IMG/VR virus record: IMGVR_UViG_3300027710_000149
Span: 1 to 22,533 of that record
Length of the DNA: 22,533 nucleotides
Direction: 5' to 3' (one strand)
Source of the DNA: a virus
Made by a program: the position numbers and the translations under genes. The notes under the pieces were generated by a model, which had not been told where the DNA came from, did not search any database, and worked only from the letters and a program-made list of their open reading frames with translations. Shown here in pieces: positions 1 through 20,426 of the stretch (its first letter is position 1; each line of letters starts with the position of its first letter).

Positions 1-521
1 TGCCAGAAGCGATATTGAGCGATGAACAATGGGACGCGCTAAAGGCCGCGAGCATAAAGGGCATTGGTGACGATGAGCTAGCCAAGGTCTTTGGGATTGA
101 ATCTAACTCGATCAGACAAAGACGTTTTCGCGATGAGGTATGGAAAGCAGCAAGGGGGCAATTGAAGCCAGTTGTAACGCAAGATGTAACCCAAGGCCAA
201 AATCCTGTAAAAACCATAGAGAACACCTCACAGATTGCGCAGAAAGTGGCCCTCACGGTGTCGGAGAACATCTCCAAGCTAGGAGAGCAGAATCGTCTCC
301 TAGCCCTTCAAATCGCAGGGAAAGGGCTAAAGCAAGCGAATGCCGCTCCGCCCGATGTGCAATCGTGGCAGGATGTCAAAGCTTTGATGGACATCGTGGC
401 GAAAGCTAGCGGCATGGATCAGGCTCAAGCGGTGCAAGTTAACGTCCTTAGCTCTCAACCCATGGATTTTTCCCCTCACTTCGAGCCGCTTGTTGAGACT
501 GATGGGGTCGTTGATGTGTAA
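1..521 (+). CDS. Small-terminase-like DNA-packaging protein, 5' end missing
   Basis: The reading frame is already open at base 3 and runs to a TAA at 519-521, so the true start lies left of the window. The first in-window initiator-type codon (TTG at 15) is probably internal. The visible 173 residues begin with a helix-turn-helix-like segment (SDEQWDALKAASIKGIGDDE, then LAKVFGIESNSIRQRR), as used by phage small terminases to bind the packaging site. An alpha-helical middle rich in Q, K and A follows, then a C-terminal part with SWQDVKALMDIVAKASGMD, a pattern I associate with small-terminase-like HTH proteins. If correct, it would recognise phage DNA and load the large terminase. No large terminase is visible in the window; it may lie upstream. 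A transcriptional regulator with the same HTH is the main alternative. Confidence 0.5.
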   Translation, partial: PEAILSDEQWDALKAASIKGIGDDELAKVFGIESNSIRQRRFRDEVWKAARGQLKPVVTQDVTQGQNPVKTIENTSQIAQKVALTVSENISKLGEQNRLLALQIAGKGLKQANAAPPDVQSWQDVKALMDIVAKASGMDQAQAVQVNVLSSQPMDFSPHFEPLVETDGVVDV

Positions 522-788
522 AGTGTTGAGTATCAACAAGGTTCAATTTGGCATGCTCGCTGTAGTTTGTAGTTATATATTAACCCGGCATTTTCCCCTT
601 CGTTCCAGCATGCCAAGGGGTAACCCGGCACCATCGAGCGCCAGGGCTGGCAGCGGCAGCGGCGTAGAGCGGTGGCCGGGGCAGTGGGGCAGCGCAGGCC
701 ACGGGTCGGGTGGGTATGGTAGTCGCGGGCCAGCCCGGCTCGTGTATAGCGTATCCATTCTCCTCGCAGGAGCACTCCCACTTGAATC
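522..788. other. Non-coding GC-rich island with direct and inverted repeats
   Basis: No convincing gene. By hand count 90 of the 120 bases at 621-740 are G or C, far above the flanks. TAACCCGGCA occurs twice, at 581-590 and 621-630. Between the copies CCCCTT (595-600) can pair with AAGGGG (615-620). TTGGCATGCT (548-557) is an exact inverted copy of AGCATGCCAA (607-616). GTGGCC (672-677) pairs with GGCCAC (697-702) around a G-rich loop, and five runs of three or four G lie in 678-713. CTCCT and AGGAG form a small hairpin near 760-772. It lies between a packaging-type gene and the 3' end of the minus-strand HNH gene, so a packaging site, replication origin, structured RNA or remnant of the HNH element are all possible. 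Confidence 0.6.
581..630. repeat. 10-bp direct repeat flanking a hairpin
   Basis: Two identical copies of TAACCCGGCA start exactly 40 bases apart. The sequence between them holds the CCCCTT/AAGGGG inverted repeat and the palindromic core GCATGC. That core also belongs to a longer 10-bp inverted repeat with 548-557. The arrangement resembles protein-binding iterons or a recombination site, but no family is recognised. Confidence 0.6.
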
Positions 789-2018
789 TTACACCCACAG
801 TTTAATACCAACTCTAGTAGCCATCTCAAACAGCTCCTTTGGTATATCCATGGCATCAAACAAACTTACATTATCCTGCCGTTCTTGATTATCTTTGCCC
901 CACAGTGGTCTGATATTCCTCCAATTGAAACAGACCACTAAATGCTCCTCATTAGTCATGTCGAAGTAGCTACATGGAATGATGTGATCCAGATGCCATC
1001 CAAACACGCCATAGTTGCTCCAGTTCATATCGGTTCCATCCAACTGCTTTTCCACATGGGCCAGCATCTCTTTGGGAGAACATCCCATGTATTTGGTGAT
1101 TGAACTGGTTTTCTGTAAACCCCTCCTTTGAAGTAATTCACGCAACCTATTGCTCAATCTGTTTTTGATTCTCACATGATTTGACTTTGGCTTTCCTTTT
1201 TCTCTAACCCGCCGCTTCTTTCTGGCATCTTTTAACTTACACCTCTTGCCACAAAACTTCTTTGTTGGGTGGATGGTTGTAAATTCAGACTGGCAAACAT
1301 GACATGTGCGATTCACCTCAACTGCCGGTTTGATTGGATTCTCCTCTCTCCATTTTTGATGCAGCCTGATTCTTCCAGCAACAGATAGGCATTTGTCGTC
1401 GCAATATCTCCTGGAATGACCTGTCTCTTTCTTACAGTGCTCACAATGAGAGTAAATAATGGTTGGCTTTTTATTCGCCTTTCTTTTCTCTCGCTCGACC
1501 TTGTTATTATTGATTTTACGGCAGGCATCGCCACAGAATGAATGCTTCCTGTATTCCATTGGCTGATGGCACTCGACGCAATGCTTCTGTGGCCTATTGG
1601 GAATGACGTATGCCCGATTCCATCTGCAAGAATCACTGCAAAGTGAGGAAGATGGATGTTTGGCTAAAAATTCCGCCTTACATTTGCGACATGCCTTTAT
1701 CTTTGGAATCCATTCGGTTTTTATCTTTGGTTTTTCAGATTTCCTTTTCTTTGCCGAACCGGCTCGGCACTTGATGGTACAGTATTTGCGCCTATAACCA
1801 ACAATCTCACATGAGCACTCCTGGCAGAATAGCGCGATCTTTTCAGGCTTGATTTTCTTCACCCTCTTGGGCCTTTGACTTTGTAGAAGTTCTCTAGCCT
1901 CCCTCTTGAGGCGACATTCTACGGCATAGAAATAGTGAAAGGCATACCCACATCTTCCAGGACATTCTTCAAATAGCATTTTGTGCGAATGGCACCAGTT
2001 GACGATTTCTCTTTTCAT
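789..2018 (-). CDS. HNH homing endonuclease with tandem Cys4 modules
   Basis: 409 residues. The C-terminal 110 form an HNH nuclease: WHLDHIIP around residues 341-348 supplies the metal and catalytic H/D-H pair, and NWRNIRPLW around 365-373 supplies the central Asn and following helix. Ahead of it sit five CxxC...CxxxC modules with first cysteines near residues 65, 110, 147, 192 and 239, each about 40 residues apart and rich in Lys/Arg. Another Cys cluster lies at 9-35. These are probably treble-clef zinc modules for DNA recognition. Such nucleases usually cut an allele lacking the gene and spread by repair. The gene is antisense to all neighbours and has an SD-like AAGGA six bases before its ATG, unlike the + strand genes, which suggests recent arrival. 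The same HNH fold recurs at 14449-15375. I am confident of the HNH assignment; the target is unknown. Confidence 0.9.
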   Translation of the reverse strand: MKREIVNWCHSHKMLFEECPGRCGYAFHYFYAVECRLKREARELLQSQRPKRVKKIKPEKIALFCQECSCEIVGYRRKYCTIKCRAGSAKKRKSEKPKIKTEWIPKIKACRKCKAEFLAKHPSSSLCSDSCRWNRAYVIPNRPQKHCVECHQPMEYRKHSFCGDACRKINNNKVEREKRKANKKPTIIYSHCEHCKKETGHSRRYCDDKCLSVAGRIRLHQKWREENPIKPAVEVNRTCHVCQSEFTTIHPTKKFCGKRCKLKDARKKRRVREKGKPKSNHVRIKNRLSNRLRELLQRRGLQKTSSITKYMGCSPKEMLAHVEKQLDGTDMNWSNYGVFGWHLDHIIPCSYFDMTNEEHLVVCFNWRNIRPLWGKDNQERQDNVSLFDAMDIPKELFEMATRVGIKLWV

Positions 2019-3208: not shown

Positions 3209-3841
3209 ATGCGAAACATAAACCTCCCCAAAACTAAAATCTACATCCGCTGTGACGCCTTCGGTGGTCCAGAAAACGAATTTGAAACAGCTTGGCTTGT
3301 ATCTGTTCGAGCGATGCGTAACCGTCCATTCTGCTTCCAGGCATGGGTGGAGAAATACGCCGCCTGTTTCGACAAAATTCCACCTCAATGCGTCTATTGG
3401 TTCGAGCCGGAAGACGATCACAAAGCACTCCCGCTACACAAAGTTCAGATGTGGGAATGCCTTTCAGGCTCCATCGAACTCTGGCGCAAGGATCAGTTGA
3501 GCGACGTGCCGGTGCTGGTGAACCTGGGCAAGGGATTGCCGCCTATCTCAGGCCACTACTGGTTCACTCTCGACTATCTACCAGAGGGTCAGCCAAGCGG
3601 TATCCTTGACGTGGGTGATGCAGAGCTTCTTGAAGAGCACAAAGAAGGCAACGTCATCAAGCTCAGCAATGGGCAGATCGCAATCTACCCGAACAACCGC
3701 ATCAAGTGGATGCCAGTTTCATTGACTGGCAAAGATGCAGCCTCGACTATTCCTGGTTGGAACGTGGCTACTAACGCTCAGTGGGATGAGTGGTGGTCTG
3801 ATTCGGATGAAATCCTTGGTGATGCCAAGTGGGCGTATTGA
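3209..3841 (+). CDS. Hypothetical phage protein, 210 residues
   Basis: I do not recognise this protein. It starts at an ATG three bases after the preceding stop, in the typical A/T-rich leader (GGTAAAATATG). It is rich in Trp and acidic residues, has no obvious membrane segment or signal peptide, and no clear Cys motif. The middle contains LPPISGHYWFTLDYLPEGQP and the end shows WDEWWSDSDEILGDAKWAY. Alternating hydrophobic and polar stretches suggest a mixed alpha/beta soluble protein. Its position in the accessory run between an ABA-sandwich-like protein and a small unknown suggests an early or host-takeover role, but nothing in the sequence shows this. Confidence 0.7.
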   Translation: MRNINLPKTKIYIRCDAFGGPENEFETAWLVSVRAMRNRPFCFQAWVEKYAACFDKIPPQCVYWFEPEDDHKALPLHKVQMWECLSGSIELWRKDQLSDVPVLVNLGKGLPPISGHYWFTLDYLPEGQPSGILDVGDAELLEEHKEGNVIKLSNGQIAIYPNNRIKWMPVSLTGKDAASTIPGWNVATNAQWDEWWSDSDEILGDAKWAY

Positions 3842-3865: not shown

Positions 3866-4102
3866 ATGAAGACCAATATGGCCTTGATTCGGCTTCCTAA
3901 TGACGTGGCCCGTTGCGATGGCGTAGGATTCGATGAAAACGGCAGTTGGGACTGGCGCGAAGGCTGTGAGACGTGTTTACGCCGCACTGCTCCACGTGGA
4001 GACATGATGCTCATATCGTTCATCCATCCGCCTGCGATTGTCGCTTTCGAGTGCGAGTTCCTCATTGAGCCAGACAACAATCATCTCAACCTAACACCTT
4101 AA
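3866..4102 (+). CDS. Hypothetical small protein
   Basis: 78 residues beginning MKTNMALIRLPNDVARCDGV. Unrecognised. Two cysteines (ETCLRRTAPRG) and the preceding Cys17 could form a small metal site, but the spacing is not a standard finger. The C-terminal third is hydrophobic and beta-like (MMLISFIHPPAIVAFECEFLI). Its stop codon overlaps the next ATG (TAATG), so the two genes are almost certainly translationally coupled. A protein with the WREGCETCLRR pattern is plausible as a phage early product; no function can be assigned. Confidence 0.65.
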   Translation: MKTNMALIRLPNDVARCDGVGFDENGSWDWREGCETCLRRTAPRGDMMLISFIHPPAIVAFECEFLIEPDNNHLNLTP

Positions 4103-4323
4103 TGGGACGCTCACCAAAATCACTCATCAACGAAACCTTCGGCAGCTTGATCGTTGTCGAACTGGTATCTCGCAACACTCATGGCAATAGCCGCTGGCTG
4201 TGCCAATGCGAGTGCGGAAACAAGACCGAGGTATATTATCAAAATCTCACCTCTGGAAGTGTGCAGTCCTGTGGCTGCTTACCCAAGGGAAGGAAGATTG
4301 GCTCCAAGAAACAATCCAAGTAA
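4102..4323 (+). CDS. Small CxCxCG...SCGC zinc-ribbon protein (copy 3)
   Basis: 73 residues. Cys 34, 36, 38 (WLCQCECGN) and Cys 57, 59 (QSCGC) fall at exactly the same residue numbers as in the protein at 2070. The two share HGNSRWLC and about 32 of 59 residues, so they are duplicates of each other, or both were acquired from related sources. A basic tail (GRKIGSKKQSK) would suit nucleic-acid binding. Start and stop overlap their neighbours through TAATG on both sides, placing it inside a tightly coupled operon. DNA binding is inferred from the family, which often sits next to AP2 or HNH domains. Confidence 0.75.
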   Translation: MGRSPKSLINETFGSLIVVELVSRNTHGNSRWLCQCECGNKTEVYYQNLTSGSVQSCGCLPKGRKIGSKKQSK

Positions 4324-10128: not shown

Positions 10129-12405
10129 ATGTCAGACGCCACAAATACCCTTGAGTCTTATAATCCTCCCGTCGTAGATGACCGGGGCAAATTCCTTGAC
10201 GAGCGAATCAAGGATGTTGGCGCTGCTCGAAGCCTTTGGTTCCGACTTCAACAGGCTGATTTGAAATCGAATCAGCAGATGGCAAAGGTTCAGGCAATGG
10301 TTGATGGCGCTCCTCCATTGGACCAAATGCAGCTTGCTAAGCAGGGTCTGGCATACATGTCCAACTTCAATCCAGGCGATGCCAAAGCTGTTCTGGATAC
10401 TTCTCTTGCTGCGTTCTATGACCTTATCTCTGGCACCGAAAGCCTGATTGACCTTCGCACCAAGTTTGGCTCTGAACAGGAACGTCAAGAATGGTCGCAG
10501 AAGATGAGCTTGAATATGAGCCGCGTTATTCGTCGCTGGCCTCAGTTCAACTTCAAGTACAGCTATATCCCACACTACATGGTTCTCCACGGTGTTGGTA
10601 TTGCTTACTTCCAAGACCCTCTCAATTGGGAATGGGATGTGACGAATCTCGCCTACTTCAAGATTCCTCGTCAGACACGCGCCAACGAAGCTGAAATCCA
10701 ATACGCCTGCCTCAAGAAGCTAGAGAATCCCGCTGACTTGATGAAGTACATCAATATGGGCGATATTGCTGATGAGCAAGGATGGGATCGCGATCAACTC
10801 AAGAAGGCGATTATGAACGCCTCTGAGCAGATTCCAGACATGCTCAACTGGATGGAATGGGAAGCTCGCTGGAAAGACAATGACATCACCTATGGCGAGA
10901 CGAGTCCGTCTATCTCTGTGATTTACATGTGGGTGCAGGAGCTTGATGGAAGCTACTCTATGTATGCTTTTGCTGAGAATGGCTACCCGATTACCGATGG
11001 AGTTCCTGAGAACTTCCTCTTTAAGCGTCGTCACCTTTATCGCAATGCTAGCGAAGCATTTACCTTCTTCACTCGCGGTATCGGCACCAATGGTAATTAT
11101 CACGGCATTCGCGGCCTTGGTTCTGATATGTTCAATGCTTTCCAGCAGTTGATGCGCTTGGAAAACAAGAAGGTTGATGTCGCACAAACCGCTGGCCCAC
11201 ACTGGCAGGTCGAAAGCGAAGAGGCAGTCGAGAACTTCCGCATCGTTCCGTATGGCGCTGGCTATCTTGTGACTCCTGGAGCAAACTTCGTCCAGGTTCA
11301 GCAGCCAAATATTATCCAGAACATTGAGCCAGCCGTTCAAAGTCTGCGTCAGACTTTCTACAACAACATTGCTCAATACACGAGCAGCAAAACGCTCGAT
11401 ACCGGCAGGGAGCTTTCCAAGTTTGAGGCGATGTCTCGAATGGAAATGGCGTCTCAGCTTTCTGTGACTTCCATCAACCTGTTCATGCAGCCGTTTGATC
11501 GACTGATGAACGAAGTTGGTCGTCGTTTCTTCCGTCCAGGATACCAACGTAGTGAGCCTGGAGGTGAGGAAGTTTGGCAGTTCCGCCAAATGTGCCTTGA
11601 AGATGGTATTCCAGAAGAAGCATTGAAGAACATGGATTTGCGCTATACGCGAGCCAGTCGTTCCATTGGCTTTGGTAGTCCTTCTGCACGTCGTTTGGCA
11701 TACGAGAACCTGATGCCAATGTACCCGTATTACGATGAATACGGCAAGCAGACTCTCATCCGCAACTTCACTGGTGCTATCGCTGGCTGGCAGATGGCTG
11801 ATGAGCTTACAACTCCTGCTGGAGCCAACCAGCGCCCACCGATTGATGCTGCAATTGCAGATGCTCAGAATGCAATTCTTGCTCAGGGTGCCACTCAGGC
11901 AATTCTGCCAAACGAAAACAAGAGCGTTCACTTGCAGGTTCATATTGCCAAGCTGACTGAGTTTTATCAGCAGTTTGACCAAGCGGGTCAGAATCCTGAG
12001 ATGTATGCTCAGATTGTTCCGCCAATGTCAAACATCTTTGATCATGCTGCTCAGACTCTTGAGCAGTTCACTGGTCCAGAAGCTCCTCAATTCCGTCAGC
12101 AACTTCAACAGTTCAATGAGATCATTGTCAACGGCTCGCGACACCTACAGAAACAGCAGGCGATGGAGGCGGAGGCATCTGGTCAACCTCAAGAAAATCA
12201 AGGGCCGTCTGAGATTGAAATGAAGATGGCGGAGTGGCGTGCAAAAATGGATCAACGAGCCGAAGAGTTCCGTATGAAAATGGAACAACGCCAAGCCGAT
12301 GCTGCTCAAGCTCGCGCTCTCAAAGATACCGCTGCCGCTGCCGCTATTGCCTTGAAGGGCGCTTCATATCAAGCGCAACAGGCATCCATTAGAAGTTCTC
12401 TATGA
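10129..12405 (+). CDS. Portal (head-tail connector) protein
   Basis: 758 residues. The length, position directly before the scaffold and capsid genes, and composition fit a podovirus-type portal, the dodecameric ring at the capsid vertex through which DNA is pumped. The middle (residues about 120-330) is rich in aromatic and acidic residues, with YIPHYMVLHGVGIAYFQDPL and the 'NLAYFKIPRQTR' block typical of portal wing and stem regions. The region near 400-470 (QNIEPAVQSLRQTFYNNIAQ, SKFEAMSRMEMASQLSVTSI) matches the usual portal clip and crown helices. The last 90 residues are Gln/Glu/Ala-rich and predicted coiled coil (KMAEWRAKMDQRAEEFRMKM), comparable to the barrel of P22-like portals. Its stop overlaps the next ATG. 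No large-terminase gene precedes it in this window. Confidence 0.85.
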   Translation: MSDATNTLESYNPPVVDDRGKFLDERIKDVGAARSLWFRLQQADLKSNQQMAKVQAMVDGAPPLDQMQLAKQGLAYMSNFNPGDAKAVLDTSLAAFYDLISGTESLIDLRTKFGSEQERQEWSQKMSLNMSRVIRRWPQFNFKYSYIPHYMVLHGVGIAYFQDPLNWEWDVTNLAYFKIPRQTRANEAEIQYACLKKLENPADLMKYINMGDIADEQGWDRDQLKKAIMNASEQIPDMLNWMEWEARWKDNDITYGETSPSISVIYMWVQELDGSYSMYAFAENGYPITDGVPENFLFKRRHLYRNASEAFTFFTRGIGTNGNYHGIRGLGSDMFNAFQQLMRLENKKVDVAQTAGPHWQVESEEAVENFRIVPYGAGYLVTPGANFVQVQQPNIIQNIEPAVQSLRQTFYNNIAQYTSSKTLDTGRELSKFEAMSRMEMASQLSVTSINLFMQPFDRLMNEVGRRFFRPGYQRSEPGGEEVWQFRQMCLEDGIPEEALKNMDLRYTRASRSIGFGSPSARRLAYENLMPMYPYYDEYGKQTLIRNFTGAIAGWQMADELTTPAGANQRPPIDAAIADAQNAILAQGATQAILPNENKSVHLQVHIAKLTEFYQQFDQAGQNPEMYAQIVPPMSNIFDHAAQTLEQFTGPEAPQFRQQLQQFNEIIVNGSRHLQKQQAMEAEASGQPQENQGPSEIEMKMAEWRAKMDQRAEEFRMKMEQRQADAAQARALKDTAAAAAIALKGASYQAQQASIRSSL

Positions 12406-14448: not shown

Positions 14449-15375
14449 ATGCAGAATGAAATTATTATCACTGATGGGGCCGATAAGGTCAAGAAGAAGC
14501 GTTGGGACACCCGCGAAGATGGTAAGGTCTTCTGGGGAATGAGAGGAGATGGCCGTGAAATATGGCTACCCATGGAAACCGCCAAGAAGCGGCAGGCAGA
14601 TTCAGATCGTCGCAATGACGAGTACAGAAAGCGCAAGTTGGCAAAAGCTGTTAAACCGGAGAATCCTCGGAAACGTGGGGAGACGCGGGATGATGGAATG
14701 ATCTTTTTCTCGTATTCCAATGTCGGCAGTGAGGTTTGGGTGACTACTAACGAGTTTAAGCGACGTTGTGATAAACAGACTCAGGCTAGAAAGAGGTACG
14801 CCAAGGATAATGTAGAGGCTGAGAGGTTGAGAGCAAAGAAATGGCAGGAGGAGAATCCTGAAAAATTTAAGGCGTCTCATCGAGCCAGCAGAGAAAAATA
14901 CAAGGAGAAGCGTTATCAAGCCACTCGTGATTGGAGAGAGCAAAATAAAGAACACCTGCAAGCATATAATAAGGCCAACAGGGAGCGTAATCGGAAGAAT
15001 TTAAGGGAATGGGTGAAGTCCAAATATGCCTCTGATCCAAAATACGCTTTGATTATCAAGGCCCGTGGATTGATGCGCTATGCATTTAATCGTCTAGGAT
15101 TTAAGAAGACCACAAAAACAGCAGAGTTGCTTGGGTGTGATTGGGAAACATTCAAACAACATATTGAATCTCAGTTTTATGGAGAAATGACGTGGGAGTC
15201 ATTTCAGCAAAAGAACCATATTGGAACATCCATGGTTGAGATTGATCATATTATTCCAATCTCTTCTGCCAAGACAGAGGAAGATGTGATAAAGCTTTCA
15301 CACCACACGAACCTTCGACCTATGTGGTGGTGGGAGAATAGGGAGAAAAGGGATAAAATGCCGCACTCCGCATAA
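14449..15375 (+). CDS. HNH homing endonuclease with duplicated N-terminal module
   Basis: 308 residues. The C-terminal 90 residues are an HNH domain: VEIDHIIPIS near 263-272 gives the D-H pair, and HHTNLRPMWWWENREKRDK near 285-303 gives the Asn and following helix. It matches the endonuclease at 789-2018 in layout, including a shared LGC/MGC-led helix before the nuclease core. Two copies of a short module are visible, RWDTREDGKVFW...REIWL at about 19-40 and KRGETRDDGMIFF...SEVWV at 75-98, followed by a very basic helical linker (110-200). The modules may be DNA-binding units. It sits as an insertion between the scaffold and capsid genes, which are normally adjacent. The ATG lacks an SD, unlike the other HNH gene. 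Confidence 0.88.
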   Translation: MQNEIIITDGADKVKKKRWDTREDGKVFWGMRGDGREIWLPMETAKKRQADSDRRNDEYRKRKLAKAVKPENPRKRGETRDDGMIFFSYSNVGSEVWVTTNEFKRRCDKQTQARKRYAKDNVEAERLRAKKWQEENPEKFKASHRASREKYKEKRYQATRDWREQNKEHLQAYNKANRERNRKNLREWVKSKYASDPKYALIIKARGLMRYAFNRLGFKKTTKTAELLGCDWETFKQHIESQFYGEMTWESFQQKNHIGTSMVEIDHIIPISSAKTEEDVIKLSHHTNLRPMWWWENREKRDKMPHSA

Positions 15376-15643: not shown

Positions 15644-16822
15644 ATGGCATGTACAGATATTAATCAATTTCTGGAGTCTGAGAGCCAAAGAATCGTCGAT
15701 GATCCTTCCGAGAAGCAATTCATCAGCAATCCTTGGCAGAACGACTCTATCGTTCCGCGTTCCCGCTGGCCCAATGGTATGGGCGATACCCCGAACTTCC
15801 TGACCTTTGAGCGTGCGATGCCGTACGGCTCCGATGTCTCGTTCACCACCTACGGCTTCAATGACGGCGGTAGCGGTGACGAAGGCGGTTCTTGCCAGCC
15901 TCCTGTGTCCACAATCTATCCTTCGCAGACTCGTCGCTCGATGGAACTCAAGATTGCGGCTGTCGAAAGCCCTCCCTTCTGTATCGAAGATGCTCGTATG
16001 AGCTACAACATCGTTCAGCAGGCTGCTGCCTTCATCCGTAACCTTCGTGGATACTCCCGCTACCTGTGGGAAAATCAACGCCGCGATCAGTTCACGTCCA
16101 TCTGCTCCAACAAGTACGTCGCTGACGCTGGCCTTACGGTCAACTCCGCTTCGTTCGCCACTGGAACGATTGGCACCCTGAAGCGCGAGATGCTTGATTA
16201 CATCCGCTACAGCCTCATCCGTAATGGAGCAGACATTCAGAACGGCCTCTCCGTCAACAAGATGGGTCAGCCTCTTCTGCCACTCGTCCTCTCCGATGAA
16301 GCTCAGCAGACTCTCGCTACCGATGGCGTGACCATCCAGAACATCCGCTGGGACTCCGAAAAGGTCCGTGCGCTCAACAATGCCCCTGGTTCCTTTGACA
16401 GCCTCAACGGCTTCAAGATGACCATCGACATCGCTGCTGCTCGCTGGAATCTTGTCGGTGGTGCTTGGGTGCGCGTTCCCTTCATGCTCCCTGCTACCAA
16501 CAAGGGTGATCCTGCGAACGTCAATCCAGCCTACTTCACGGCTCAATACGAAGATGCGATCATCGCCACCAAGCAGGTTGTGAAGTTTGCGATTCCTGAT
16601 TCTCAGCTTTCCGCTGGGGAAATGAAATTCGCTCCTCAGGACTACCTTGGCCGATTCAACTGGATCAACAAGTATGACCGCACTTGCAACGTGGACGAAA
16701 ACATTGGCTTCTTCCGTGGCAAGTTCGCCTACGGTGCTCAGCCAGTGATTCCTGAATACGGTGCAATCCTCCGCTTCCGTCGCTGCCCAACCAACTGGGT
16801 TGTGAACACCGCCTGCTCTTAA
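15644..16822 (+). CDS. Major capsid protein
   Basis: 392 residues. Assignment rests on position after portal and scaffold, size in the HK97-fold range, and signs of high expression: a biased, C-ending codon set unlike the neighbouring genes, its own leader, and a strong terminator right after the stop. The sequence starts MACTDINQFLESESQRI and contains the long helix-like stretch IVQQAAAFIRNLRGYSRYLW (about 125-144). A mixed beta-rich second half follows, with VLSDEAQQTLATDGVTIQNI and ending NWVVNTACS. The helix followed by alternating beta segments fits the spine helix and P domain of the HK97 fold. It would form the icosahedral shell around the scaffold. No family name can be read off with certainty. 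Confidence 0.75.
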   Translation: MACTDINQFLESESQRIVDDPSEKQFISNPWQNDSIVPRSRWPNGMGDTPNFLTFERAMPYGSDVSFTTYGFNDGGSGDEGGSCQPPVSTIYPSQTRRSMELKIAAVESPPFCIEDARMSYNIVQQAAAFIRNLRGYSRYLWENQRRDQFTSICSNKYVADAGLTVNSASFATGTIGTLKREMLDYIRYSLIRNGADIQNGLSVNKMGQPLLPLVLSDEAQQTLATDGVTIQNIRWDSEKVRALNNAPGSFDSLNGFKMTIDIAAARWNLVGGAWVRVPFMLPATNKGDPANVNPAYFTAQYEDAIIATKQVVKFAIPDSQLSAGEMKFAPQDYLGRFNWINKYDRTCNVDENIGFFRGKFAYGAQPVIPEYGAILRFRRCPTNWVVNTACS

Positions 16823-16840
16823 TCGAGTAGAACCACTTGA

Positions 16841-16878
16841 GGCGGGGTTAGTCTAAAAAACTAGCCCCGCCTTTCTTG
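16841..16878 (+). terminator. Intrinsic terminator after the capsid gene
   Basis: GGCGGGGTTAGT (16841-16852) pairs with ACTAGCCCCGCC (16860-16871) through 12 positions with one T-G wobble, around a seven-base loop, and is followed by TTTCTTGC. It starts 18 bases after the capsid stop. It would separate the abundant capsid transcript from the fibre genes. Confidence 0.88.
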
Positions 16879-16914
16879 CATACACACCAAAACTCTGCTA
16901 ATAGCTAATTGCTT

Positions 16915-17187
16915 ATGAAACTCTCTTTTACCTCACCTGAAGGCTGGCAAATGCCAGAAGACGCAACACCTGGACAGCCTTTTCAAGCTGTTGGAACATT
17001 CCTCGCCGATGAAGATGGCAATCTCACTCTGACAGCCATTGATGGAACCGAAATTCCAATGATGGAAGACGACGAGATGGAGATGGAAGATGAAGGAGTT
17101 GAAGTCGAAGTAACGATGCCTGAAAAAGAAATGTCTGAAGAAGAAGACATGATGGATCGCGCTAAGAAAATGGGCGTCTTCAAATAA
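16915..17187 (+). CDS. Acidic small protein, possible capsid decoration or linker
   Basis: 90 residues from the ATG giving MKLSFTSPEGWQMPEDATPG; an upstream TTG two codons earlier is less likely. Residues 1-48 look like a small beta domain (PFQAVGTFLADEDGNLTLTA). Residues 49-80 are almost entirely Glu, Asp and Met (EDDEMEMEDEGVEVEV), ending with a short basic helix (RAKKMGVFK). Such acidic tails can hold a partner or keep a head protein soluble. Placed just after the capsid gene and before fibre genes, it may be a head-decoration, connector or chaperone-like protein. No family is recognised. Confidence 0.65.
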   Translation: MKLSFTSPEGWQMPEDATPGQPFQAVGTFLADEDGNLTLTAIDGTEIPMMEDDEMEMEDEGVEVEVTMPEKEMSEEEDMMDRAKKMGVFK

Positions 17188-17199
17188 ACATCTCATCTT

Positions 17200-17571
17200 A
17201 TGAGGCCAGCATTTTCTGATGAAGTAAACGCAATGGTTGTCTTCGTTGCCGGAGACACATGGAATGGATTTCCGTCCATCACCGTGTCCAATCGTATTGC
17301 GCCTGGAGATCTGGCCTCAGTTAAGATGGCATTCAAGCTCAACCCAAAGAGCACAATGCCAACGCTGGAACTCACCAGTGGCAATGCAGACATCACCATT
17401 AGTGATCCGGTGAATTGGGTATTCACCATCAATCCAGGTCGATACGAATTGCCAATTGGGCAATATGTCTGGCAGATTGAAACGACTGACGACAGCACTC
17501 CATCAGCTTATGTCGAAACATTGATGGAAGGCATCGGAGAAGTGCTATCCAACTACACGACCACAACCTGA
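17200..17571 (+). CDS. BppU-like phage appendage protein
   Basis: 123 residues, beta-rich. The layout is short polar strands (TWNGFPSITVSNRIAPGD), then FKLNPKSTMPTLELTSGNAD, then VFTINPGRYELPIGQYVWQI and a closing VETLMEGIGEVLSNYT. This resembles the immunoglobulin-like or BppU N-terminal type of phage baseplate or fibre-associated proteins, where the sandwich anchors the receptor-binding module. The stop overlaps the fibre start (TGATG), so the two are coupled in translation and probably assemble together. The name is by resemblance; other phage Ig-like domains would look alike at this level. Confidence 0.55.
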   Translation: MRPAFSDEVNAMVVFVAGDTWNGFPSITVSNRIAPGDLASVKMAFKLNPKSTMPTLELTSGNADITISDPVNWVFTINPGRYELPIGQYVWQIETTDDSTPSAYVETLMEGIGEVLSNYTTTT

Positions 17572-20426
17572 TGAGCCAGACAAATATTTCCGTTAATTCC
17601 ACGCTTGGTCCAACAATTGAAGTTCTGAGTGACGGAGGCATTGTAATCAATGTTGCCACTCCTGTCAGTGGAACTGGAGATGTGACTGGTTCAAGCTCTT
17701 CTGCGGATAACCAGATTGTCCGCTTCAATGGCATAAGTGGAAGAATCATTCAGAACTCTGGAATCACGATTGCTGATGGAGTATCAGGCGCATTATCAGG
17801 AACGAATACAGGTGACGTAACAATTGGAACGGCAAACGGCTTGTCCATTGCTGGTCAGGCATTGAGCCTTGGAACCTCCTCCGCATCAACCACGGGCGCA
17901 TTGACATCCACCGATTGGAGCACGTTCAACAGCAAGCAGCCTGCTGGAAATTACATCACGGCACTAACCGGAGATGTCACTGCATCTGGCCCTGGTTCTG
18001 CTGCTGCCACACTTGCTTCAACGGCTGTAACTCCAGGAGCATACACACTGGCAAACATAACGGTGGATAGCAAAGGGCGCATCACATCTGCTGCCAATGG
18101 GTCTGCTGGAACCGTTACAAGTGTTGGCATCACTGGAACAGATGGCATCCAAGTTGATTCAGGATCGCCAGTAACGACATCTGGAGACATTCAGCTTGGT
18201 GTTGATGCTGCCACAATGAAGACCACGCTAAATCTGGCTGGCACAAATACCGGAGATCAAAACATTTTTGGCACGTTCGCTGTTGCAGGTCAAAGCAATG
18301 TAGTGGCTGATTCTACGAGCGACACGTTGACATTGGTAGCTGGGACCAACATCACAATTACCACTAATGATGCTACTGACAGCATCACCATTAACAGCAC
18401 TGCATCTGGCGGAGGAACACCCGGCGGATTAGATACTCAAGTTCAGTTTAACGATGGCGGTAATTTCGGTGGTGATTCAGGACTGACGTACGACAAAACG
18501 ACAGACACGCTTTCAGCGACAAATCTGACGGTTAGCGGTCTTTCGACATTGGCTCATATTCATGGCTCTATTGCTGGAAATCTTTACGTCCATGTCAAAA
18601 ATACCAGTGGAGTTACCATAGCAAAAGGAACGCCAGTTTATGCGACAGGCAGCGTTGGAGTTAGTGGAAGAATTGAAGTATCGGCGGCTGATTATACCAA
18701 CTCAGCTAAGATGCCAGCTATCGGGATCACTGATACCCAATTAATCGCAAACGCAGAGGGTAACGCCGTCATAGTTGGCGAAGTCACAGGACTAGCAACT
18801 AACAGCTACGCAATCAATCAAGAGCTTTTTGTTGGAACATCCGGACTGCTTGGAGCACTGCCAACAACGGGAGAAGCCCAATCAATCGCTGTTGTTTCTC
18901 GCGCTCATGCTTCCACTGGCATCATTGTTGTTAATTCTCAGGCTAGAATAGCAAATGGATCAATAACTAACGCAAGGTTGGCCAACATGGCTGCTAACAC
19001 GATCAAAGGTCGTGTTACCGCATCAACAGGCGCTCCTGAAGATATTACGCCAGCTTCGCTAACCGAAGAAACGGCACCGGCAGCAGGAGATTTCTTGTTA
19101 GGCTGGGAATCAGGAGGCGGCATTCGCAAGTTTGACGTTGGTGATTTGCCAGGAGGAGGCGGAACACCTGGAGGAGTTAACACCGAGTTGCAATTCAACA
19201 ACTCAGGAGCCTTTGGAGGTGCGGATATTCGTTGGGTTGATCCATATCTGGAGATGCCAATTGATGGAACCGTTGCGACAAGGGCAAAAATTGGAATGCA
19301 GTCTGGAGCCGATAATGGCTCTTATACAGCTAACGCTGGAAATTTACTAACATACGGTGGCGACGGTGGATCGACACCACAAAGTCCAGGAGGTGGTTCT
19401 GGCGGCGCTGGTGGAGAAATTAGAACGTATGGCGGAAACGGTTTTACAAGTGGCGAGCCTGGAGGTGACTACAGTGGAGGTACCGGCGGTTACATTCACA
19501 CATATGGAGGAGACGCAACAGATGGATTAAATGGTAATCCAGGTGGCTATATTAATACGAGCAATGGCGGAGGAAATATTGATACCAGTATTAACGGAGG
19601 ATCAATTATAACAACAGGCACAGGTTCAATTGGGTTTGGTGGACCATCTACTCGCACAACTCTCAACGGAACAGCCACATCAAACCAAACCATATCTCTA
19701 CCAGACGCCTCTGGAACTTTACTCTTACAGAATGGCGCACTTGGAACTCCATCTAGTGGAACACTTACGAATTGCACAGGATTGCCCATTGCTGGCGGCG
19801 GCACAGGTCAAACAACCGCAGTCGCTGCATTTGATGCACTCGCGCCAACCACGACAAAAGGCGATCTTATTGCTCACAATGGCACCGATAATATCCGAGT
19901 TGCTGTAGGTGCTACTAACGGCCATGTGCTTACGGTAGATAGCGCCGAGGCAAGTGGAATCAAATGGGCTGCGGCAAGTGGTGGAATTGCCCCATTATTT
20001 GCCTCCAAAACTGACACTGAGACTCTAGCCGCAGCGGCTTGGACAGATATTACCGGTCTAAGCATTGCATTTCAGGCTTTAAATATCACGCAAAAAATCT
20101 CAGTTAGAGCGTGTTTAAACGCTGGAAATCCAACTACGGCAATTATTGGTTTTAGATTAGTAAATGAAGATGGTGTTCTTCTTCAGGGCGCTGCTTCTGG
20201 ATCTCGTTTGCAATGTCACGCATTTGTTTACGGAACAGCAGCCTCAATTACTACACCAGTCACTTTTGAGGTGGTATTTACACCTGGAACTATCTCCTTA
20301 AGAAATTACAAAGTTCAGTGGTTTAGGTCTGGCTCTGGAAATGTTTATATCAATCGAACCTCAGCTGATGTAGATAGCAATTTGTATCCTCGAACTGCAT
20401 CAACCCTGTTTCTTCAATCTTTCTAA
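17571..20426 (+). CDS. Large fibre protein with repeats and C-terminal knob
   Basis: 951 residues, rich in Gly, Thr, Ser, Asn and Ala and poor in charge. It shows phage fibre signatures: TSTDWSTFNSKQPAGNYITA with ALTGDVTASGPGSAAATL, then ITVDSKGRITSAANG (about 110-180). The block GGGTPGGLDTQVQFNDGGNF near 280 recurs as GGGTPGGVNTELQFNNSGAF near 525. A Gly-rich stretch with many YGG and GGYI units (about 595-685) follows. LGTPSSGTLTNCTGLPIAGG, GGTGQTT and TKGDLIAHNGTDNIRV (about 720-775) are widely shared in tail fibres. The last 150 residues end in SLRNYKVQWFRSGSG and look like a compact beta knob for receptor binding. Probably a trimeric fibre. The position right after the capsid gene makes a head fibre as plausible as a tail fibre. 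Confidence 0.8.
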   Translation: MSQTNISVNSTLGPTIEVLSDGGIVINVATPVSGTGDVTGSSSSADNQIVRFNGISGRIIQNSGITIADGVSGALSGTNTGDVTIGTANGLSIAGQALSLGTSSASTTGALTSTDWSTFNSKQPAGNYITALTGDVTASGPGSAAATLASTAVTPGAYTLANITVDSKGRITSAANGSAGTVTSVGITGTDGIQVDSGSPVTTSGDIQLGVDAATMKTTLNLAGTNTGDQNIFGTFAVAGQSNVVADSTSDTLTLVAGTNITITTNDATDSITINSTASGGGTPGGLDTQVQFNDGGNFGGDSGLTYDKTTDTLSATNLTVSGLSTLAHIHGSIAGNLYVHVKNTSGVTIAKGTPVYATGSVGVSGRIEVSAADYTNSAKMPAIGITDTQLIANAEGNAVIVGEVTGLATNSYAINQELFVGTSGLLGALPTTGEAQSIAVVSRAHASTGIIVVNSQARIANGSITNARLANMAANTIKGRVTASTGAPEDITPASLTEETAPAAGDFLLGWESGGGIRKFDVGDLPGGGGTPGGVNTELQFNNSGAFGGADIRWVDPYLEMPIDGTVATRAKIGMQSGADNGSYTANAGNLLTYGGDGGSTPQSPGGGSGGAGGEIRTYGGNGFTSGEPGGDYSGGTGGYIHTYGGDATDGLNGNPGGYINTSNGGGNIDTSINGGSIITTGTGSIGFGGPSTRTTLNGTATSNQTISLPDASGTLLLQNGALGTPSSGTLTNCTGLPIAGGGTGQTTAVAAFDALAPTTTKGDLIAHNGTDNIRVAVGATNGHVLTVDSAEASGIKWAAASGGIAPLFASKTDTETLAAAAWTDITGLSIAFQALNITQKISVRACLNAGNPTTAIIGFRLVNEDGVLLQGAASGSRLQCHAFVYGTAASITTPVTFEVVFTPGTISLRNYKVQWFRSGSGNVYINRTSADVDSNLYPRTASTLFLQSF
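18409..19207 (+). repeat. Degenerate coding repeats within the fibre gene
   Basis: Two copies of a segment encoding GGGTPGG-x-x-T-x-x-QFN are found, the first near 18409-18470 and the second near 19145-19207, with about 735 bases between. The peptide is conserved but the DNA differs at many third positions, so they are old duplications kept for structure. Confidence 0.6.

Follow-up and report, generated by a model that had tools for sequence, protein, structure and literature searches.

The roughly 250 bases of GC-rich, non-coding DNA that lie directly 3' of a small-terminase-like (terS-like) gene in an uncultured phage record from IMG/VR (22,533 bp; this whole stretch is referred to as the window) form, as our best guess, a cis-acting DNA region of the terS locus, reaching from the terS stop codon to approximately position 770. 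Sequence comparisons suggest, tentatively, that this island is most likely a pac-type packaging-start region, in which a short specific core is embedded in a recombining, composition-constrained spacer. Since the island keeps the same place and a near-constant length despite its shuffled letters, it probably functions in control or as a packaging start and is not debris of the neighbouring nuclease gene. The features of the locus are listed in Table 1.

Table 1. Coordinates of the features at the terS locus of the window
Feature	Position	Strand	Basis
Putative small-terminase-like ORF (HTH plus long helical hairpin; start codon cut by the record end)	3..521	+	17 relatives, low-confidence model
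Hairpin TGTTGA-GTA-TCAACA, starting two nucleotides past the stop codon	524..538	+	Covariation
AT-rich, TATA-like tract TTATATATTA, position conserved	573..582	+	Island alignment; without sigma-70 match
GC-rich, G-skewed, hypervariable non-coding island	594..750	+	G+C profile, position in relatives, ~67% identity, recombination
Conserved core CCACGGGTCGGGTGG	699..713	+	Only match in the window
Conserved 3' boundary motif (relatives: GCGTAGCGTATANATTCACTCYCC)	742..766	+	Island alignment
HNH / endonuclease VII-like gene, insertion adjoining the island	789..2018	-	Weak phage endonuclease VII similarity

The island had been singled out in a sequence-only reading of the window, which estimated a G+C content of about 75% for positions 621-740. 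The computed profile confirmed this value against a window mean of 48% (0.482, sd 0.050; ~5 sd) and identified the same interval as the highest-G+C 120-bp stretch of the whole window. The statement that no gene covers the island also held. No reading frame was found to be conserved among the relatives, in whose islands 94% of the indels are not multiples of three, and a coding region was rejected for this reason.

A search with the terS-like protein yielded 17 loci; an alignment search added one distant locus (L040). Searching for the portal brought in further contigs, L061, L073 and L072, in which the region is accompanied by a different terS. L061 and L073 are identical in the fetched DNA, and after removal of duplicates the set comprised 16 distinct genomes, including the window. 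The island was found directly 3' of the terS-like stop codon in all 16 genomes, with the same length in nearly all of them, and was also present in those where the N-terminal two thirds of terS are replaced (L061, L072) and in the distant genome G005. Each genome carries one copy, and the island is confined to this phage group: the search for cultured or plasmid relatives of it found none in 50,697 phage records and otherwise gave a single marginal match, of 48 bp, on two Paraburkholderia records, and no relatives of terS were found in bacterial genomes. The core pattern also matched once in a Rhodobacteraceae MAG, which is close to the number expected by chance at that database size (approximately two by our estimate).

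The gene that follows the island differs among the genomes. An HNH/endonuclease VII-like gene is the downstream neighbour in the window and in L005, a CapR-like ORF in L002 and L072, and methyltransferase-like genes, which we named from sequence motifs, in L010 and L011; in the remaining genomes the island is followed directly by the next shared gene. The only HNH gene found in the same slot as that of the window, and 35% identical to it, is that of L005/L006, so that the gene occupies the slot in 2 of the 16 genomes. The suggestion that the island is a relic of the HNH insertion was therefore refuted, since the 14 genomes without an HNH gene at the slot carry the island and the island does not go with the gene. 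Further downstream in the window, the ORFs at 2070-2270, 2325-2816 and 4102-4323 share a CapR/HNH-associated DNA-binding module (phrog_374), with a Pfam CapR match in the last of these, and the zone past the island thus looks like a homing-nuclease-rich cargo region. A second endonuclease VII-like HNH gene (phrog_1035) is located at 14449-15375, a short distance 5' of the putative major capsid gene.

Several elements of the island are conserved. The 12-bp consensus CACGGGKCGRGT (700-711) is exact in 14 of the 16 genomes, differs at one or two positions in L008 and L015, and occurs as a single copy per fetched sequence. For the 15 genomes in which the core was placed relative to the stop codon, the distance is 189-196 nt in 12, 178-179 nt in the window and L017, both of which lack 12 nt, and 121 nt in the distant G005. 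Every island measured has, around the core, a G+C content of 68-75% and a G/C ratio of 1.5-2.4, with the G excess on the + strand. The hairpin next to the stop codon has six pairs, with 95% of cells paired in 14 distinct alignment rows; three of the pairs are changed on both sides, G-U pairs are present, and slid controls scored far lower.

By comparison with other parts of the genome, the rest of the island is highly variable. Pairwise DNA identity is ~67% for the island among twelve genomes, 95% for the portal gene among seven, 87% for ORF 3209-3841 among eight, and 63% for the 5' part of terS among ten genomes with the common terS type, which makes the terS 5' half and the island the most divergent of the segments compared. 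The island is recombined at a scale of tens of bases: in the PHI test neighbouring sites showed greater compatibility than under permutation (the observed value was reached in none of 2,000 permutations), and linkage decays to background by ~40 bp, with the fine alignment of the island being uncertain in places, which weakens these column statistics (PHI, LD). Island distance was not related to the type of the TerS DNA-binding domain (Mantel r = 0.02, for only 12 sequences). L003 and L004 have an identical domain and islands that are 59% the same; for L003 and L061 the island figure is 84% and the domain figure 29%, indicating that the variable part of the island is not matched to the terS DNA-binding domain. 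In L005 (5627-5704), the island contains a 26-bp repeat in three tandem copies, absent from the window, which suggests slippage or unequal exchange.

The individual features that the sequence-only reading had listed are mostly private to the window or near chance. Its 10-bp direct repeat (TAACCCGGCA at 581 and 621) and 10-bp inverted repeat (548-557 with 607-616) are both exact; a direct repeat and an inverted repeat of 10 bp arise in 5.3% and 1.7%, respectively, of dinucleotide shuffles of 522-770, and the two repeats of the window were found in none of 15 relatives. The CCCCTT/AAGGGG stem is present and also appears in the predicted fold. The five G-runs proposed to form a quadruplex exist, but the strict G4 pattern (G3+N1-7 x4, i.e., four runs of at least three G with loops of 1-7 nt) occurs nowhere in the window and is missing from 10 of the 16 islands; a conserved G-quadruplex element was thus rejected. 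Of the structured RNA, the part that stood is the covarying 15-nt hairpin; the GC-rich part folds no better than shuffles, and a structure extending across the island was rejected. Folding of the region as single-stranded DNA gave z = +0.30 against shuffles, and RNA folding gave z = -1.8 for the window and an average of ~0 for the relatives. Fold energies match those of composition-preserving shuffles, which are blind to selection on G+C itself, on both strands, with whole-island and local z-scores near 0. Neither an Rfam family nor a tRNA was found in the island, and no sigma-70 promoter or terminator was matched in the three islands scanned, that of the window among them.

The ORF upstream of the island is probably a TerS, as its position, the HTH and the helical hairpin of the low-confidence model suggest. 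The name is a putative one, since the ORF had no match in Pfam or PHROG, and the predicted model was too poor for a fold search. In L061 and L072 the protein is modular, with a very different N-terminal part and a retained C-terminal tail, QAVQVNVLSSQPM. The phages represent a new group with genomes of ~62-66 kb. Four contigs of 62-66 kb (G004, G028, G003 and G001) are near full circles; G004 carries a repeat of 123 bp at its ends, and the ends of the other three map near each other. Each of these contigs is opened at a different place, which is what circular or permuted DNA would give. A leftward block of replication and recombination genes encodes DnaB, an O-like initiator, a RecE-type exonuclease and a resolvase, and the rightward block opens with terS. 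A 602-aa TerL-like protein with the Walker and nuclease motifs of large terminases is encoded ~27 kb downstream in G003; its name rests on these motifs and on weak similarity, by tblastn, to annotated terminases, and a search with Pfam Terminase_6N found no TerL.

Among other observations on these genomes, the large-terminase-like gene is split in G021 and G028 (loci L061 and L073; G028 16667-19160), its last 30 residues being encoded ~600 bp beyond the rest, which suggests an intron or a nuclease insertion. The window ORFs at 10129-12405 and 15644-16822 had no family match, and their labels as portal and major capsid genes are our assignment from size and gene order. A single gene in G003 (42118-51630) and G005 (48286-59307) encodes a protein of 3,170-3,673 aa, possibly a giant virion protein, for which no Pfam match was found in G003. 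No tyrosine integrase was found in five long genomes, and an attachment site was rejected as a reading of the island.

Among the functions proposed in the sequence-only reading, a packaging site is the best candidate by position and by its conserved short core, the function being putative. Under this reading, the core would be a specific landmark for the terminase, and the G-rich, length-constrained spacer would act via composition or DNA shape, not exact sequence, and would be continually re-assorted by recombination. The terS-like protein would act on the island, and the packaging cut would start there. As for a pac-type site, the candidate adjoins the putative small terminase gene in one copy in all 16 genomes. 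Packaging, the role that a site at this location would most naturally have, is favoured because the island is in the same place throughout, single-copy, non-coding and folded no better than shuffles, because its core, spacing, G+C content and G excess are kept, because a TerL-like protein is present, and because the near-circular contigs are opened at differing places. It is weakened by the absence of a family-model match for TerS, by the distance of ~27 kb to TerL in G003, by a core that is not fully invariant, and by island alleles that are unlinked to the DNA-binding domain, contrary to simple HTH-pac co-evolution. For the HK97 small terminase, 15 bp suffices and the site is read inside the channel of the protein (PMC11331095); a short core could therefore still be read in another way. 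If the island is a packaging start, the site would tolerate divergence of approximately one third around a 12-bp core even as the neighbouring gene exchanges its DNA-binding domain, a point relevant to how small terminases locate their DNA, an open question.

The main rival to packaging is a recombination boundary; next in order come an untranslated-region element and an origin of the R-loop type. Phage nuclease genes have been found at exchange boundaries, and the region by the terminase is a hot spot (PMC10448857). The island could, though we consider it somewhat unlikely, be a hot spot of terS-island allele exchange driven by homing-type nucleases (HNH and CapR-type ORFs) and a RecE/RecT-type system, without a packaging role, its GC-richness being a by-product of exchange or of a shared donor pool. 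The PHI result, the short range of linkage and the divergence of the terS 5' half and island agree with this, as do the RecE-type exonuclease of these genomes and the adjoining CapR-type and HNH ORFs. However, exchange alone leaves the conserved core, the near-constant length and the kept G-skew unexplained, and the island persists without an adjoining nuclease gene. Should the island be a recombination boundary and nothing more, it would be a clear natural case of very fine-scale exchange at the terminase locus. We regard as doubtful a cis-element that works mainly by composition (G-skewed, 68-75% G+C) with a fixed length and the 12-bp core, the remainder being freely shuffled; an example would be a start site for packaging or replication that is prone to R-loops or read by its shape and doubles as a recombination hot spot.

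It is unlikely that the hairpin and a GC-rich transcript shield or insulate the mRNA of terS, or control how downstream cargo genes are expressed; the covarying hairpin with its G-U pairs and the very GC-rich transcript in all relatives are consistent with such a role, but fold energies equal to those of shuffles and the lack of terminator or sigma-70 promoter matches in the three scanned islands argue against it. Similarly doubtful is a replication origin, possibly of R-loop type, at which the TATA-like tract and then the G-skewed non-template strand would prime replication. All islands have an AT-rich tract followed by a G-rich, G-skewed stretch, and no iterons are evident around the O-like gene, which would suit an R-loop origin. 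Against it, the hallmarks of an iteron-type origin were not found at the island, which shares no initiator-binding iterons among relatives and shows no switch in a flat cumulative GC skew; no promoter was matched, and the replication genes belong to the leftward block next to it. A cos site, with fixed cohesive ends cut in the island and the HNH protein helping as in HK97, is very improbable. The GC-rich site beside terS and the HNH gene adjoining in 2 of 16 genomes would fit, but most relatives lack this gene, the near-complete circles are opened elsewhere, and no mapped contig end of the relatives falls within the island, which, contig ends being an indirect proxy for virion ends, speaks mildly against it.

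The island resembles several known systems in part. Like the pac sites of the headful phages P22 and SPP1, the putative packaging-start region is located at or beside a small terminase gene and would have a short specific sequence, and in both cases genome assembly gives circles whose opening point varies. In P22, pac spans 22 bp within the terS gene (PMC9611059), whereas the candidate site is located past the gene, in a GC-rich spacer of ~250 bp of which about one third varies between near relatives. The cos region of HK97 has a short recognition sequence near the terminase genes, to which the candidate core would correspond, and a close HNH gene (HK97 gp74), as is seen here in two relatives. 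Unlike in HK97, however, most relatives lack the HNH gene, TerS and TerL are ~27 kb apart in G003, and contig ends, as a proxy for virion ends, do not point to fixed ends within the island. With homing-endonuclease hot spots (PMC10448857) the island has in common HNH and CapR-type ORFs by a packaging-type gene and strong local mosaicism; it differs from them in that it also exists without the HNH gene and has a conserved core and spacing of its own.
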